Below are positions 22,690 to 30,487 of a stretch of DNA of 64,000 nt, piece after piece; position 1 is the stretch's first letter, and every line of letters begins with the position of its first letter. The notes under the pieces are model-generated. The model was not told the origin of the DNA. It did not search any database and saw only the letters and a list, made by a program, of their open reading frames with translations. A program made the position numbers and the translations under genes. Origin of the DNA: Adhaeribacter aquaticus DSM 16391 (GTDB taxonomy: Bacteria; Bacteroidota; Bacteroidia; Cytophagales; Hymenobacteraceae); contig NZ_KI421517.1 in assembly GCF_000473365.1 (NCBI RefSeq), positions 1,918,745-1,982,744 of the forward strand. Direction: 5' to 3'.

Positions 22690-23916
22690 TTAAATTTTGA
22701 TAAAGATTTTGTTCCGGTACATCCAATACAAAATAAGCCACTCTACGAACATCACAAGTCCGCCACTTACTAGCGTGGCGTAAGGCAAACCGAATACCTG
22801 ATCGTAGTAGGGACCTAAATGAATATAAAACGACCGGGAAATGAATTTGGCAATGGTTTCGGCCATAACATACGCCGCAATAGAATTCATGCCAACGACC
22901 AAGAACGGGAAAGACCAGCTTTTGTATTGGGCCACATCAATAACACCATAAAAGACAGCTAAAAACAAAAAGCACCATCCCCCACTAAACAAAGTCCAGG
23001 CTGGCGTCCAGATCCGTTTCACGATCGGGTTTATCCCGGCCAGGTGCAGCAAAAACCCCAACACCAGTAATCCAAACCCGAATAGCAAAAATCGTTTTAT
23101 TTTGTCTTTGTCAGCTATCGCAGATTTTAAAGTATTACCGGCCAATAAACCTAAAATCATGGTACCCAAGGTTGGAATAAAGCTAAGGGTGACATATCCG
23201 CCATTGTTGTTAGAAAATAAACTTTCCCGGGGAAACAAGTTTAAAAACCATTTATCAAATGCCCAGGCCAGGTTGGTGTTCTTGTTCCAATGCGCCATAA
23301 AACGGCTTAAATTATATTCCCAATCTAAGGTAACGCCAGCGGCAGCATAATCAAAGTCAGGTCCGGGTAATGGATATAAGGCAAAAGCGGCCCAATACCC
23401 CACTAACAATAAAACCAGAGTTACTATTTGTACCCGCTGCGAAGAAAAGCCCAGCAAAAACAAGAACGGATAACCTAAGCCAATCTGAGTCAGAGTGTCT
23501 TCAAACGTAAAATACGTCTGATCCCGGTGCATCGACCGCAGGAATATACCCAGTAAAATCAAGACTACCGACCGTACTACTGCATGGCGGAACAAGGCAC
23601 CAAAGGAAGCGCCTTTGGCCAATCGGCTACCCAACGAATAGGGTAGCGCTACGCCCACCAGGAAAGAAAATGATGGCTGAATTAAATCGTGCAAAGAGCA
23701 TCCCACCCACTCCACGTGTTCCTGGTGAAAGGCCAGGAGATACCAGAAGTTGCTTTCGGGTAAAGCCTTGGCCACTTCAGCCAGTTCTAAAATTTCGGCC
23801 ATCATGAGCAACATTACAAAACCCCGGTACACATCTACTGATGCCAGGCGTTTGCTTACCTGTAAGGAATTTACAATGGGGGCACTCGTAAGAGGAGCAG
23901 AAGTGGTGGTCTGCAT
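22690..23916 (-). CDS. DUF5009 / heparan-alpha-glucosaminide N-acetyltransferase-like membrane protein
   Basis: The 408-residue protein has about ten membrane segments. It begins with RLASVDVYRGFVMLLMM, the typical first helix of the DUF5009/NagX/HGSNAT group. EWVGCSLHDLIQPSFSFLVG, carrying the conserved His-Asp, follows near residue 75. Relatives acetylate glucosamine residues across a membrane (human HGSNAT) or are linked to N-acetylglucosamine use (bacterial NagX). The gene lies upstream of the Tat oxidoreductase on the same strand and is divergent from the kinase/nucleotidyltransferase/GH109 operon. This supports an amino-sugar theme, but its activity here is inferred. Confidence 0.8.
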   Translation of the reverse strand: MQTTTSAPLTSAPIVNSLQVSKRLASVDVYRGFVMLLMMAEILELAEVAKALPESNFWYLLAFHQEHVEWVGCSLHDLIQPSFSFLVGVALPYSLGSRLAKGASFGALFRHAVVRSVVLILLGIFLRSMHRDQTYFTFEDTLTQIGLGYPFLFLLGFSSQRVQIVTLVLLLVGYWAAFALYPLPGPDFDYAAAGVTLDWEYNLSRFMAHWNKNTNLAWAFDKWFLNLFPRESLFSNNNGGYVTLSFIPTLGTMILGLLAGNTLKSAIADKDKIKRFLLFGFGLLVLGFLLHLAGINPIVKRIWTPAWTLFSGGWCFLFLAVFYGVIDVAQYKSWSFPFLVVGMNSIAAYVMAETIAKFISRSFYIHLGPYYDQVFGLPYATLVSGGLVMFVEWLILYWMYRNKIFIKI

Positions 23917-24408
23917 AATCAGCTTTTAATGTCTTTTAACAAAACTTATTATTTAAATCAACTGTAGCACCGTTTGGGAAAGCTTATGCTCATTAAAGAC
24001 TGTAATTAACTTATGATAGATAATAAAATACAAAGTATTTAAAATAGAAAAAAGCACTTCCTGATTTACCTAAATATTATCAAATAAAAAATCAGGTTCC
24101 AAAATGGATTCTGGTTAATAGTTGTAAATCTCCTTAACCGCAACCAGATGATCCTTAACTACAATCAACTAAACTTAACTTACTTCTTTTAACCTCCGGA
24201 TGATTTTACTGGTAATTTAAAATCATCCGGAGGTAAATGCTAAAAAACTTGATTAGCCTTAATATTTTTAGCTCAACCAGTGGATTTCTCCGAAAATATC
24301 TGCTACTTAATGTAAAAGAAATTTAATCTAAAAGATTACTTGGTAGAAAACCTTTTACTAAAATAAATAAGATATTCAGGAAAAAGTGTGTTACAGAAGG
24401 ATAACCCA
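23917..24408. promoter_or_regulatory. Divergent intergenic region with perfect palindrome
   Basis: The 492-bp region between the divergent DUF5009 and GHMP kinase genes must contain both promoters. Besides AT-rich sequence it holds a 16-bp perfect inverted repeat at 24192-24234, described separately. No gene is seen. Confidence 0.5.
24192..24234. promoter_or_regulatory. Perfect 16-bp inverted repeat in the divergent promoter region
   Basis: ACCTCCGGATGATTTT (24192-24207) and AAAATCATCCGGAGGT (24219-24234) are exact inverse complements around an 11-base spacer. No gene ends here on either strand, so a terminator is unlikely. It could be an operator for the divergent genes or a structured leader of the kinase operon. 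Confidence 0.6.
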
Positions 24409-25497
24409 ATGGTAAATGTATCGGCGCCAGGGCGCATTTGTTTATTTGGCGAACACCAGGATTATTTAGGCTTGCCGGTAATTGCGGCGGCCATTTCCCG
24501 GCGGATTTATTTAACCGGGCAACAGCGAGCTGATAAACAAATAATCTTAAACTTACCCGATATCGCTTCAAAAGAAAGTTTTGAACTGGCACCCAAAATA
24601 GAGTACCAAAAAGACCGGGATTACCTGCGGAGCACCCTGAATGTATTGCAACGCCGAGGATTTACTTTTTCCCAGGGTTTAGAAGTTACGGTTCGGGGCA
24701 ATATTCCGATTAATTCCGGGACCTCCAGTTCATCAGCCCTAATCGTGGCCTGGATCAAATTTTTGATTCAATTAACTGATAATCCTAAACAACTTTCCGC
24801 TAAAGAGATTGGCGAATTAGCTAATGCTGCCGAAGTTTTGGAATTTGGCGAACCGGGTGGCATAATGGACCATTACTCTTCGGCTATAGGCCATATTATT
24901 TATTTGGAATCGGATCCGGTTGTTAAAGTGGGAAAGCTTAAGCCCCACCTCGGCACCTTTGTACTGGGCGATTCACAGGAACCAAAAGATACCATTACCA
25001 TTCTTAAACACGTAAAGTTTGGTATGCTGCAAGCTATTCAGAAAATTAAAACACATCATCCTGCTTTTAACCTGCAGCAAGTTACTGCCGCAGAAGCAGA
25101 TTCATTTCGTTCGCTTCTTACACCCGATGAATTCAGTTTATTCCAAAGCAATATTTCTGACCGGGATATTGTGCGCCAAGCAAAAAAAATGTTTTTACAG
25201 GACCAGGTGGACAGCAAACTATTCGGTCAGTTGTTAAACCAACACCAAAATAATTTAAGGGATGCCAAGCGCATATCAACGCCTAAAATAAACGCCATGA
25301 TTAATGCTGCTTTAGAGGCCGGAGCCCTGGGCGCCAAAATAAATGGTTCGGGCGGCGGCGGTTGTATGTTTGCCTATGGTCCGGAAAACCCCGAAATAGT
25401 AGCCGAAGCCATTGAACGGCAAGGCGGAAAAGCCTATATTATCACCGTGGATGAAGGCGTGCGAACAGAAACTGGACCGGAAACAATAAAAGCATAA
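24409..25497 (+). CDS. GHMP-family sugar kinase, galactokinase-like
   Basis: About 362 residues; ATG at 24409 (MVNVSAPGRICLFGEHQDYL) is preferred over a GTG seven codons upstream. The GHMP signatures are present: APGRICLFGEHQDY (galactokinases have GEHTDYN), the phosphate loop GNIPINSGTSSSSAL, the catalytic Asp in EPGGIMDHYSSAIGH, and the C-terminal GAKINGSGGGGCMFAY. The protein should phosphorylate a sugar at C1. It lies two bases before a nucleotidyltransferase gene, so the pair would turn a free sugar into a nucleotide sugar. With a GH109 N-acetylgalactosaminidase third in the operon, GalNAc is a reasonable substrate guess; galactose, fucose or another hexose are alternatives. Confidence 0.85.
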   Translation: MVNVSAPGRICLFGEHQDYLGLPVIAAAISRRIYLTGQQRADKQIILNLPDIASKESFELAPKIEYQKDRDYLRSTLNVLQRRGFTFSQGLEVTVRGNIPINSGTSSSSALIVAWIKFLIQLTDNPKQLSAKEIGELANAAEVLEFGEPGGIMDHYSSAIGHIIYLESDPVVKVGKLKPHLGTFVLGDSQEPKDTITILKHVKFGMLQAIQKIKTHHPAFNLQQVTAAEADSFRSLLTPDEFSLFQSNISDRDIVRQAKKMFLQDQVDSKLFGQLLNQHQNNLRDAKRISTPKINAMINAALEAGALGAKINGSGGGGCMFAYGPENPEIVAEAIERQGGKAYIITVDEGVRTETGPETIKA

Positions 25498-25499
25498 CT

Positions 25500-26363
25500 A
25501 TGACGAGAAGATTATTGGTATTAGCCGGCGGAACGGCTTCCCGAATGAAGGAACGTCGGGGAAACCTGACTGGCCTTCAGGATAACCTGGTTTCCCAGGC
25601 AGACTCCCTTACCAAGGGTATGATTGGCGTGGGTCCTTCAGGTCGCCCTCTAATGGACTATTTACTGTATAATGCTCATAAAGCTGGTTGCACCGAAGTG
25701 TTATTACTTTTAAATCCTGTAGATACTTATACCCAAACCTATTATGAAAGTAAAATGGCGGAAAACCTGGTCTGGGGATTGCACCTATTTTTTGCCCGGC
25801 AGCATATTTCCCCCAGCCGAACTAAACCAGCGGGAACTGCGGATGCCGTTTTACAAGCTCTAGAACAACACCCAACCTGGCAGCATGGGCAATTTGTGGT
25901 TTGCAACAGCGATAATTTGTATTCCGAAAATGCATTCCAGTTGCTTTGGCATACCTCCTATCCGCATGCCCTTATTAGTTATAATTCCGAAGGGTTGGGC
26001 TTTACTGAAGAACGTATCCGGGCTTTTGCCGCCATTAAAACCGATGCTGAAGGTTTTGTGCAGGGTATTCTGGAAAAACCAACTAACGCAGAAATGGCCG
26101 CAATAGAACAGCAGGGGCCGGTAGGCGTGAGTATGAATATATTTTTATTTGAGGCTGCAGCATTGCTGCCGCACCTCCAAAAAACACCGTTCAACCCCAC
26201 CCGGAATGAACAGGAATTACCAACTACCGTTAATCTACTGGTGCAGGATTACCCCAAATCAATGCTTGCTATTCCGCTTACTGAAAGGGTTCCTGACTTG
26301 ACAAGCAAAAACGACCTGCTGAAAATGCAGACTTATTTAACAACTTATTTTCCCGAACTATAA
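25500..26363 (+). CDS. Sugar-1-phosphate nucleotidyltransferase-like protein
   Basis: The 287-residue GT-A-like protein begins RRLLVLAGGTASRMKER, a form of the LAGGxGxRM nucleotide-binding signature with a short insertion before the substrate loop. Other recognisable pieces are PAGTADAVLQAL, VCNSDNLYS (the Asp that binds metal) and GILEKPTNAE, all in the order seen in NDP-sugar pyrophosphorylases. Length is typical of the short class. The gene begins two bases after the kinase stop, which implies tight co-expression and a kinase-then-activation sequence. The nucleotide and sugar cannot be read from the sequence. It does not look like the UDP-glucose or RmlA types. Confidence 0.82.
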   Translation: MTRRLLVLAGGTASRMKERRGNLTGLQDNLVSQADSLTKGMIGVGPSGRPLMDYLLYNAHKAGCTEVLLLLNPVDTYTQTYYESKMAENLVWGLHLFFARQHISPSRTKPAGTADAVLQALEQHPTWQHGQFVVCNSDNLYSENAFQLLWHTSYPHALISYNSEGLGFTEERIRAFAAIKTDAEGFVQGILEKPTNAEMAAIEQQGPVGVSMNIFLFEAAALLPHLQKTPFNPTRNEQELPTTVNLLVQDYPKSMLAIPLTERVPDLTSKNDLLKMQTYLTTYFPEL

Positions 26364-26374
26364 TTTGCTCCATT

Positions 26375-27724
26375 ATGCTTACCCCTATCCACCGCCGCAA
26401 TTTTATTAAAAAAAGTTCTACAGCCGTAGCCGCGATTGCCCTGCTACCCTCCATGGTTTTGGGTTTACCAAAAGAAAAAAAAGCCCGGCTTGGCTTTATT
26501 GGCGTAGGGCTCCGGGGACGAAACCACGTAACCAATACGTTGTTATTTCCAGATGCTGAAATTATAGCTATTTGCGATATTGATCCGAATGCCATAATGG
26601 AAACTCAAAACCTGTTAAAGAAAGCAGGTCGAAAAGCGGCTGCGGTTTATGGAAAAAACGAGCAGGATTTTGAGAACCTGGTAAAACGCCAGGACCTGGA
26701 TGGGGTGGTAATTTCTACTCCCTGGGAGTGGCATGTTCCCATGGCCATAGCTGCCATGAATGCCGGCAAATATGCAGGCATAGAAGTTTCGGCAACCGTA
26801 AAATTGGAAGAATCGTGGCAGCTGGTAGATACCTTTGAACGAACGGGTTCGCACTGTATGATCCTGGAAAATGTGTGTTACCGCCGGGATGTAATGGCTG
26901 TACTGAATATGGTTCGGCAAGGCTTATTTGGTGACATATCCCACCTGCAATGTGGTTACCAACACGATTTACGGCACGTAAAGTTTAATAATGGGCAACA
27001 GCCCTACGGGGGAGGAGTGGAATTTGGGGAGAAAGGTTTTAGTGAAGCCCGCTGGCGCACCCAACACTCCATCGATCGCAACGGGGACTTATACCCCACG
27101 CATGGCCTAGGTCCGGTAGCCCAGATGATTAACATTAACCGGGGCAACCAATTTTTGTACCTGACATCCATGGCCACGAAAAGTGCAGGCTTGCATAAAT
27201 ATATTGTTGATAATGGCGGCGAAAATCATCCGAATGCAAAAGTAAATTTTAAGTTAGGTGATATTGTACAAACCATGATTAAATGCGCCAACGGCGAAAC
27301 TATCTTAATCACCCATGATACTAATTTACCCCGCCCCTATTCGTTAGGCTTCCGGGTACAAGGCACCAATGGTTTGTGGCAGGACGATGGTGATAAGATT
27401 TACCTGGAAAAAATAAGCAAAACGCCCCATGAATGGGAGCCGGATACCGAATACCTTAAAAAATACGATCATAAATATTGGAGAGAATCTGAGCAAGTAG
27501 CCCAAGGTTCCGGCCACGGTGGTATGGATTACTTTGTGATCCGGGATTTTATTCAAGCTGTAAAAAACCGCACAGCCCCACCAATAGATGTGTACGATGC
27601 TGCAGCCTGGTCGGCCATTAGTCCTTTATCTGAAGAATCTATTGTTAAAGGCTCAGCTCCTATTCCTATACCAGACTTTACCCGCGGCAAATGGAAGAAT
27701 GCAAAACCGGTATTTGCATTGTAA
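26375..27724 (+). CDS. GH109-type alpha-N-acetylgalactosaminidase (NAD-dependent, Gfo/Idh/MocA fold), Tat-exported
   Basis: The 449-residue protein starts with a twin-arginine-type signal (HRRNFIKKSSTAVAAIALL). The NAD domain follows (ARLGFIGVGLRGRNH, then AICDIDP). Segments strongly recall Elizabethkingia alpha-N-acetylgalactosaminidase: ILENVCYRRD, RNGDLYPTHGLGPVAQM, GLHKYIVDNGGENHPNAKV, ETILITHDT and PYSLGFRVQGTNGLW. The Tyr and His of YPTHG correspond to substrate-contacting residues in that family. GH109 enzymes cleave alpha-GalNAc by an NAD-dependent oxidation-elimination route. It is the third gene of the operon, 11 bases after the nucleotidyltransferase. The family call is strong; the natural glycan is unknown. 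Confidence 0.86.
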   Translation: MLTPIHRRNFIKKSSTAVAAIALLPSMVLGLPKEKKARLGFIGVGLRGRNHVTNTLLFPDAEIIAICDIDPNAIMETQNLLKKAGRKAAAVYGKNEQDFENLVKRQDLDGVVISTPWEWHVPMAIAAMNAGKYAGIEVSATVKLEESWQLVDTFERTGSHCMILENVCYRRDVMAVLNMVRQGLFGDISHLQCGYQHDLRHVKFNNGQQPYGGGVEFGEKGFSEARWRTQHSIDRNGDLYPTHGLGPVAQMININRGNQFLYLTSMATKSAGLHKYIVDNGGENHPNAKVNFKLGDIVQTMIKCANGETILITHDTNLPRPYSLGFRVQGTNGLWQDDGDKIYLEKISKTPHEWEPDTEYLKKYDHKYWRESEQVAQGSGHGGMDYFVIRDFIQAVKNRTAPPIDVYDAAAWSAISPLSEESIVKGSAPIPIPDFTRGKWKNAKPVFAL

Positions 27725-29458: not shown

Positions 29459-30487
29459 TCATTTCTTTTTACCCTTGCTATTGGCAGCAGATCTACCCGG
29501 CTGCATCATCAGGTTTTCTATTTCCTCAGTAACTTTTACAAACGGCATGGCCTCGGTTAAATAAATATGCGGACCAGTAAGATCGTCTTGCCACGTATTA
29601 CTCCCGTCTGTTCTGTTAACAACGATATGTCCGCGTTTAGATCCAAAATAAGGCGCAACACCCCGTATTCCAACCAAAACGGCAGTTTGGTCCCAACTTT
29701 GCCGCCCATTTCGGTCTTTTTCACTTCTAGCCATGCACCAGGTAAATACATCTTTTACCGGGCCTTGTAGTTTCTCATTGGCAATAACCCGTAAGCCGGT
29801 TCTTACCTGACTACCTATTTCGTAACCACTTAAAGTTATGGAGGTTGGCCAGGCTTCAAATACCTTAGCCGCCGACAAGGTGTCCATGTACACATTATAC
29901 TCCCGGCCCTGGGGGAAAGCCCCTGCCATGGAAACTAAATTTTTCACCTTTTGCCGTACCAATTCTGTACCCGTTAACTTTGAATTCTCATCCGGGCTAG
30001 ACTCCAACAAATCGGCCAGGTTGGTTAAAAACCCTATGGTTATAATAGTCACACTTTTATCTGGTTGGCTAGCTAATACTTTACGGTACGTCTGTACGGC
30101 ATCGGGTGCTGCAGCCGTAGTGGTAAATTTATGCGGGTATTTTTGCACCAGCATTTCCGGCCATTTTTGGCCTGCACCGGCATTCACTGCTTTCCCTTTA
30201 GGAGCACCCGTAGGCAAATTGGGACGGCCAAAACAAGTGTTAAGAATATCAATAGTTGGCACCACCAATTCATGCTTATTACAAGATATGACCGCCAATG
30301 GCTTAACTTCTCCCTGATCGGCCAAGGCATGAAAAACAGCCATAGCACCTGCATCATCATAATCTGGTCCAATATCAGTATCCAGAATTACCGGAACCGG
30401 TACTTTTGCTTTTTGTCCGACTACCGGAATTATAGCCGCCCAGAATAAACCCAACAACATCAAAAGCTCAAAGTTCTTGTATTTCAT
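29459..30487 (-). CDS. Exported nucleoside hydrolase-like protein
   Basis: The 342-residue protein has an N-terminal signal peptide (LLMLLGLFWAAIIPVVG). The family metal-binding motif follows in VILDTDIGPDYDDAGAM, in which the spaced Asp residues bind Ca2+. ITIGFLTNLADLL, the conserved segment lining the active site, and an Asp in SWDQTAVLVGIRG near the C-terminus complete the pattern. Family members hydrolyse the N-glycosidic bond of nucleosides, releasing a base and ribose. Export suggests scavenging in the periplasm. Substrate preference cannot be told. The basic C-terminal tail (SKGKKK) is unusual but short. Confidence 0.85.
   Translation of the reverse strand: MKYKNFELLMLLGLFWAAIIPVVGQKAKVPVPVILDTDIGPDYDDAGAMAVFHALADQGEVKPLAVISCNKHELVVPTIDILNTCFGRPNLPTGAPKGKAVNAGAGQKWPEMLVQKYPHKFTTTAAAPDAVQTYRKVLASQPDKSVTIITIGFLTNLADLLESSPDENSKLTGTELVRQKVKNLVSMAGAFPQGREYNVYMDTLSAAKVFEAWPTSITLSGYEIGSQVRTGLRVIANEKLQGPVKDVFTWCMARSEKDRNGRQSWDQTAVLVGIRGVAPYFGSKRGHIVVNRTDGSNTWQDDLTGPHIYLTEAMPFVKVTEEIENLMMQPGRSAANSKGKKK

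Follow-up and report, generated by a model that had tools for sequence, protein, structure and literature searches.

A predicted N-acetylgalactosamine salvage cassette of Adhaeribacter aquaticus pairs a GHMP-family kinase with GH109, a variant of a known arrangement in Bacteroidota

Human cells salvage N-acetylgalactosamine (GalNAc) with GALK2 and UAP1, which produce GalNAc-1-phosphate and then UDP-GalNAc. In the lacto-N-biose/galacto-N-biose pathway of Bifidobacterium longum, the kinase NahK phosphorylates N-acetylhexosamines (HexNAc) at the anomeric position and nucleotide activation follows; sugar release relies on a phosphorylase, and the uridylyltransferase is of another type than the enzyme considered below. 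The aga pathway (AgaPTS, AgaA, AgaS, tagatose-6-phosphate) also serves GalNAc use but runs through a 6-phosphate. Bacteroides genomes encode up to 17 GalNAc-releasing enzymes, yet a survey of gut genomes places the known GalNAc pathway, found in 76 genomes, in Actinobacteria, Firmicutes, and Proteobacteria, with Bacteroidetes not among them (PMC5583593). A GalNAc kinase from Bacteroides, reported in 2025, is BT4240 of B. thetaiotaomicron; this APH-family enzyme prefers GalNAc over N-acetylglucosamine (GlcNAc) about 275-fold, yields a 1-phosphate when tested with GlcNAc, and is required for growth on GalNAc (PMC11992087). Its polysaccharide utilization locus (PUL), BT4240-50, also encodes a GH2 (glycoside hydrolase family 2) enzyme (BT4241), a major facilitator superfamily (MFS) protein (BT4242), and a GH109 enzyme (BT4243). 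The fate of GalNAc-1-phosphate was left open: the main text of that paper passes GalNAc phosphate to an unspecified "downstream metabolism" and makes no mention of a nucleotidyltransferase, uridylyltransferase, pyrophosphorylase, epimerase, or UDP-GalNAc. Here we analyzed a 64,000-nucleotide stretch of Adhaeribacter aquaticus DSM 16391 (contig NZ_KI421517.1, positions 1,918,745 to 1,982,744; hereafter the window), in which a GHMP kinase, a sugar-1-phosphate nucleotidyltransferase (NTase), and a GH109 enzyme are encoded side by side.

The cassette consists of three plus-strand open reading frames (ORFs) with intergenic gaps of 2 and 11 bases, and an ORF check recovered the order, strand, and spacing that had been predicted from the DNA. 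The kinase P0001 (24409..25497, 362 aa from ATG, with an alternative GTG start at 24388) is followed by the NTase (25500..26363, 287 aa, PF00483, RmlA/GalU fold) and by the GH109 α-N-acetylgalactosaminidase with a Tat-type signal (26375..27724, 449 aa, PF21252). The cassette probably serves GalNAc salvage or catabolism, leading from GalNAc to GalNAc-1-phosphate and on to UDP-GalNAc; we infer the substrate, the phosphate position, and the nucleotide. The Tat-exported GH109 would free α-linked GalNAc outside the cytoplasm, and the sugar would enter the cytoplasm, in many relatives perhaps through the NagP-like MFS carrier encoded beside the kinase. There, the GHMP kinase would phosphorylate the anomeric hydroxyl group and the NTase would couple the resulting GalNAc-1-phosphate to UTP. 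A 4-epimerase may then convert UDP-GalNAc to UDP-GlcNAc, which could enter the cell wall or be channeled by way of GlcNAc phosphate and NagB into central metabolism. Some relatives have GalE- or NagB-like genes next to the pair. Salvage of GalNAc was the function put forward in the original prediction, and it draws support from the linkage of kinase and GH109 among relatives and from the exchange of the kinase for a NahK-like one in a single genus. Its strongest support is that exchange, together with the B. thetaiotaomicron APH-family kinase, which is encoded beside GH109 and has been assayed as a GalNAc 1-kinase.

The exchange was observed in genus g13, tentatively Flavobacterium-like, where the kinase–NTase pair is replaced at the same site. 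Three genomes (G025, G170, and G222) carry the gene order f7439, LacI, GHMP kinase–A2 NTase, MFS, NagB, and two (G174 and G206) carry f7439, LacI, A4 NTase–NahK-like kinase, MFS, NagB. Here A2 denotes the NTase family of the window and A4 the 3pnn-type family, whose profile matched 3pnn in the Protein Data Bank (PDB; E 8e-113). A sixth genome, G285, keeps the pair, MFS, and NagB, with f7439 and LacI about 18 kb away. Between the swap loci compared, the MFS proteins are 76% and the NagB proteins 92–94% identical; in one g13 locus scored, the former is NagP-like at 464 bits (cut-off 625) and the latter NagB-like at 1072 bits (cut-off 384). An evolutionary enzyme swap is suggested because relatives hold an unrelated, characterized kinase type at the same place. 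These loci thus suggest that the GHMP-kinase/A2 pair is a non-homologous replacement, performing the same job, of the NahK-like/A4 pair found in other Bacteroidota.

The same alternative pair accompanies GH109 beyond this genus. We took 20 GH109 loci from genomes without the GHMP kinase, of which 19 gave a GH109 ORF; in seven of the 19, an APH-family kinase (L114, L115, L117, L122, and L125) and/or a PF00483 NTase (L122, L125, L126, and L129) lay within 3 kb of GH109, as confirmed with Pfam. The best PDB matches of the APH kinase profile were N-acetylhexosamine 1-kinases (E 7e-85). Of 296 genomes sampled from the phylum and searched at E 1e-30, 18 (14 of 140 genera) contained the GHMP kinase, 45 a NahK-like kinase, and none contained both. 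Among the 84 genomes with GH109, the two kinases occurred in 14 and 44, respectively, a lack of overlap with P 7e-6 when relatedness is ignored. GH109 was present in 58/63 genomes with either kinase vs 26/233 with neither. Nearly all NahK-like genomes contained GH109 (44/45) and A4 (44/45), and A4 occurred in seven of the other 251 genomes; the NahK-like kinase lay within 5 kb of GH109 in 17/44 and of A4 in 22/44. These distance counts left out GH109 in G055 and extra copies in G108, G126, G162, G171, and G203, none of them on the contig of a counted NahK-like kinase. The A2 search covered 294 genomes, with 296 taken as the co-occurrence total, and G082, whose kinase is cut by a contig end, was counted as kinase-negative.

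Within the order of A. aquaticus, the kinase was detected in 60/341 genomes and 14/121 genera. From 34 of these 60 genomes we examined 40 loci of 20 kb each (two loci in six genomes), a non-random draw made by best match and with one locus per genus first. The prediction turned on whether relatives keep GH109 with the kinase, and 23/40 loci do; the window-type NTase lies near the kinase in 5/40. Conservation of the three-gene set in Bacteroidota holds for the kinase–GH109 linkage, whereas the exact contiguous trio is rare: the uninterrupted run of kinase, NTase, and GH109 was found only in the window, L073, and L077, followed in the latter two by a NagB-like gene, and L020 has the same run with GalE between NTase and GH109. 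Eight of the 40 loci place an MFS gene, of the type scored as NagP-like in L028 and L041, between kinase and GH109. Clusters of SusD-like (named by eye) and DUF3472 genes stand beside the kinase in six loci, five of which also have a SusC-like gene. In L086, L093, L099, L105, L109, and L110, the kinase ends a PUL-like run after GH109, SusC/SusD-like (by eye), and DUF3472 genes; no GH109 was seen in the PUL-like stretch of L110, and the other five have it.

In the phylum sample, GH109 occurred in 14/18 genomes with the GHMP kinase vs 70/278 without it. The two genes lay within 10 kb of each other in 5/14 and within 30 kb in 8/14 of the genomes that hold both, the former count having a rough binomial probability of 7e-9 (approximate genome sizes, relatedness ignored). 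The linkage is thus conserved beyond chance. Among 106 neighbors within 3 kb of the kinase at 25 loci, counted without a control set, GH109 was commonest (9), followed by CarbopepD_reg_2 (7), LacI, MFS, TonB plug, and Peripla_BP_4 (6 each), NagB/PIG-L (4), and SSF and epimerase (3 each). This count excluded 29 of 135 neighbors (all NTases, loci L034 and L038, one overlapping ORF, and three long ORFs), and many gene names in the loci were assigned by eye, with a subset checked by Pfam or NCBIfam. Other GalNAc-releasing families are found more sparingly: GH20 adjoins the NTase in L035, and L027 has a GH123 catalytic domain 4 kb from the pair. Hydrolases of families GH2, GH29, GH35, and GH38 also occur near the kinase in some loci. 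G604 has one kinase–NTase copy with GH109 and another, on the same contig as two GH123 catalytic domains, 13–18 kb from them; strong GH123 catalytic matches were found in 3/56 kinase genomes searched.

The third gene of the cassette was predicted to encode a Tat-exported GH109, and this assignment is well founded. The protein matches PF21252 at 309 bits (cut-off 27) and the GFO_IDH_MocA NAD domain PF01408 at 37.4 bits (cut-off 24), aligns over residues 33–449 with the α-N-acetylgalactosaminidase of PDB entry 2ixa (E 2e-160), and begins with a Tat-like RRNFIKK stretch, read directly. It is the only PF21252 match in its genome, which is 99% complete. There is thus a strong case, from sequence, that it releases α-linked GalNAc outside the cytoplasm. 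PF21252 matches fall into two score classes, the weaker at ≤152 bits. Weaker-class proteins (in G025, G170, G174, G206, G222, G245, G285, and G190) align with the profile no further than from positions 2–3 to about 167. The six of them compared from g13 share 33–36% identity with the window GH109; this class is perhaps another subfamily.

The galactokinase-like GHMP assignment of the kinase was likewise confirmed. P0001 contains GHMP_N, GHMP_C, and GalKase_gal_bdg domains (PF00288, PF08544, and PF10509), placing it in the GHMP superfamily, and its AlphaFold2 model (pLDDT 90.9) matched galactokinases in Foldseek with a query TM-score of 0.80–0.85 (2cz9, 0.84). It falls below the curated cut-offs of all 13 NCBIfam families matched. 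Mevalonate kinase was considered and rejected (TIGR00549, 134.4 vs 163.05 bits; NF003036, 138.1 vs 403). No PF01636 (APH) match was obtained at 1e-3, so by family the enzyme is not of the NahK/BT4240 type. GALK2 shares the GHMP fold with P0001 but is longer; resemblance to GALK2 was dropped as a proof that the enzyme is specific for GalNAc because P0001 is not specifically closest to GALK2 and because the next PDB match of a GALK2-like kinase is a galactokinase. In a 65-row tree, the kinase family separates from the galactokinase of the same genome and from GALK2-like kinases with support 100/99. The grouping of the window kinase with that of its congener reached only 85/92, and the smallest well-supported set containing it has 18 rows. 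In the order sample, the kinase was found in two of three genomes of the genus, G578 lacking it, and in no further genome of the family. We predict that P0001 is a GalNAc (HexNAc) 1-kinase, with GalNAc as the likely substrate and O1 as the likely site.

The NTase was predicted to be a short NDP-sugar pyrophosphorylase-like protein. The family assignment stood, with PF00483 at 44.7 bits (cut-off 21.2) placing it among sugar-1-phosphate nucleotidyltransferases; the description as short did not, 287 aa being the usual length for the RmlA/GalU fold. Foldseek matched its AlphaFold2 model (pLDDT 92.1) best to RmlA and UDP-glucose pyrophosphorylases (TM about 0.64–0.72). Its nearest profiles were mixed (GlgC, GlmU-like, RmlA, and GalU), and its scores lay below the curated glmU-like and glgC cut-offs. 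We predict a UDP-HexNAc pyrophosphorylase that would use UTP and GalNAc-1-phosphate. Sixteen of the 18 GHMP-kinase genomes in the phylum sample have an A2 NTase, always within 3 kb of the kinase, and the other two have A4 elsewhere. An NTase survey of the order (41 of the 60 kinase genomes plus G578) found A4 only in 33 genomes, A2 only in six, both in three, and neither in none; the 33 genomes without A2, all with A4, comprise 32 with the kinase and the kinase-less G578. In the congener G461, the NTase is missing exactly between kinase and GH109, and A4 is encoded elsewhere in the genome. That none of the kinase genomes searched for A2 and A4 lacked both fits the prediction of a required pyrophosphorylase step.

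NTases of the A2 type also occur in other settings. In family f16 (L031, L033, L144, and L145), the A2 NTase adjoins an epimerase, with a DegT-like aminotransferase (by eye) near it in L031, L033, and L144. Divergent A2-type NTases stand beside SDR and RuvA-like genes (by eye) in L141 (9477–10316), L142 (9545–10390), and L143 (8246–9088), and no match to the kinase queries was found near them. In L022–L026 (e.g. L022, 3832–6218), an A2-type NTase is directly followed by a GALK2-like kinase. When the kinase of L022 was searched against the PDB, GALK2 N-acetylgalactosamine kinase came first (E 4e-78). These loci also contain genes that by eye resemble an SSS-type symporter and a Gfo/Idh protein. 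This GALK2-like enzyme might thus add a third kinase type to those serving this function.

Several observations weigh against the GalNAc assignment, as do the missing GalT genes and the GH2/GH35 neighbors discussed below. GH109 is missing from 17/40 order loci and from 4/18 kinase genomes of the phylum sample; 6/14 genomes with kinase and GH109 have only the weaker class; and neither kinase is present in 26/84 genomes with GH109. Taken over the full set of 296, the non-overlap of the two kinases is weak on its own (P 0.05, Fisher 0.09, relatedness ignored). In g13, GH109 belongs to the weaker class (141–146 bits) and lies 10–29 kb away, on opposite sides of the swapped pairs. In sequence and fold, galactokinase and mevalonate kinase are the nearest relatives of P0001, with no specific closeness to GALK2, and a kinase-adjacent protein in L032 scores 1507 bits with PF19543 (GH123_N) without matching the GH123 catalytic model. 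Four genomes (G013, G034, G131, and G047) have an A2 NTase but no such kinase, in the last among epimerase and aminotransferase-like genes (partly by eye), and the f16 pair, with an epimerase and an aminotransferase-like gene close by, looks more like nucleotide-sugar biosynthesis. The kinase-less G578 has two A4 copies, and family f3, tentatively Spirosoma-like, may just be one in which A4 is frequent. Finally, the 64-kb window gave no match to MFS, NagB, GalE, or epimerase queries.

The alternative that survives best, an unlikely one in our judgment, is a broad HexNAc kinase for which GlcNAc is at least as good a substrate as GalNAc and which feeds UDP-HexNAc into envelope polysaccharides instead of GalNAc catabolism. 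The NagP-like and NagB-like neighbors and the f16 loci are compatible with it, and the B. longum enzyme is similarly active on both sugars, as stated in the BT4240 study (PMC11992087). However, GH109, the commonest linked hydrolase, is a GalNAc family, and BT4240 strongly prefers GalNAc. Slightly less probable is a role in galactose use, with P0001 acting as a galactokinase and the NTase as a GalY-like substitute for GalT; galactose would be converted via Gal-1-phosphate and UDP-Gal to UDP-Glc, and GH109 would be a passenger. The galactokinase fold and the EHxDY-type motif of P0001 would suit this function, as would the GH2 and GH35 genes near some pairs and the GalE gene in L020; the PF00483 protein GalY has been predicted as a GalT replacement in the gut-genome survey (PMC5583593). 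GalT (PF02744) is missing from 7/18 kinase genomes, in which the pair may act on galactose. In contrast, P0001 scores 116.8 bits against a cut-off of 226.65 for TIGR00131 and was rejected as a member of that galactokinase family, and the genome encodes, apart from P0001, a galactokinase that exceeds this cut-off (L002, 293 bits) and a GalT match. One internal TGA was flagged in the latter, which might suggest a broken gene, but the flag also arises when a match extends into its terminal stop codon, and the window NTase is such a case. The swap with NahK-like kinases and the linkage to GH109, more rarely to GH20 and GH123-type genes, also argue against galactose as the substrate. That kinase pair and GH109 merely share a transcription unit by chance, as the rarity of the exact trio and the kinase-less congener might suggest, is highly improbable given GH109 in 23/40 order loci and their proximity in the phylum sample.

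The genes flanking the cassette do not appear to belong to it. The divergent DUF5009/HGSNAT-like gene of the original prediction (22690..23916, minus strand) is present, as are the oxidoreductase (Gfo/Idh) and bicupin (cupin) genes, but none of these is part of a unit conserved in other loci. Together with an acyltransferase, they were dropped as members after tblastn of the other loci examined, which returned no relatives of the bicupin or acyltransferase and only weak oxidoreductase matches, largely to GH109-like genes. The divergent membrane protein matched NagX of NCBIfam (E 4.5e-40, 138 bits vs a cut-off of 480) and no Pfam family at 1e-3, and in congener locus L072 the neighborhood of the kinase includes a homologue at 29%; its relation to the cassette is only possible. 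NagX is a glucosamine N-acetyltransferase, and the NagX-like protein could acetylate a hexosamine. A nucleoside hydrolase-like gene (29459–30487, minus strand; PF01156, 68.6 bits) has a signal-like N-terminus by eye.

The original prediction held that no described bacterial pathway had this exact gene set. No bacterial GalNAc kinase of the GHMP type was found in a literature search of open-licence papers, but a locus with a GalNAc kinase of a different type and GH109 had already been published. The window cassette therefore varies an arrangement already known rather than defining an entirely new pathway. As in PUL BT4240-50, a kinase gene is linked to GH109, although here its use of GalNAc is predicted, and many GHMP-kinase relatives likewise have an MFS gene. 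The kinases differ in family, BT4240 being an APH protein (PF01636). The proposed route also resembles that of B. longum NahK in starting with an anomeric HexNAc kinase, again of a family unrelated to GHMP. With roughly even confidence, we propose that GalNAc use in Bacteroidota is mainly Leloir-type, with a 1-kinase, a UDP-HexNAc pyrophosphorylase, and a 4-epimerase drawn from interchangeable non-homologous modules: APH kinase with 3pnn-type NTase, GHMP kinase with A2-type NTase (the module of the window), or, in Ignavibacteria-type genomes, GALK2-like kinase with A2-type NTase; the swap would take place in a locus that is otherwise unchanged. Genus g13 cleanly illustrates such a replacement, with non-homologous gene pairs at the same locus in different members of a single genus. 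From the cassette we predict a second family of GalNAc 1-kinases, which would be unrelated to the APH type, and it names the likely next enzyme, so that two purified proteins would allow a direct test of what becomes of GalNAc-1-phosphate.

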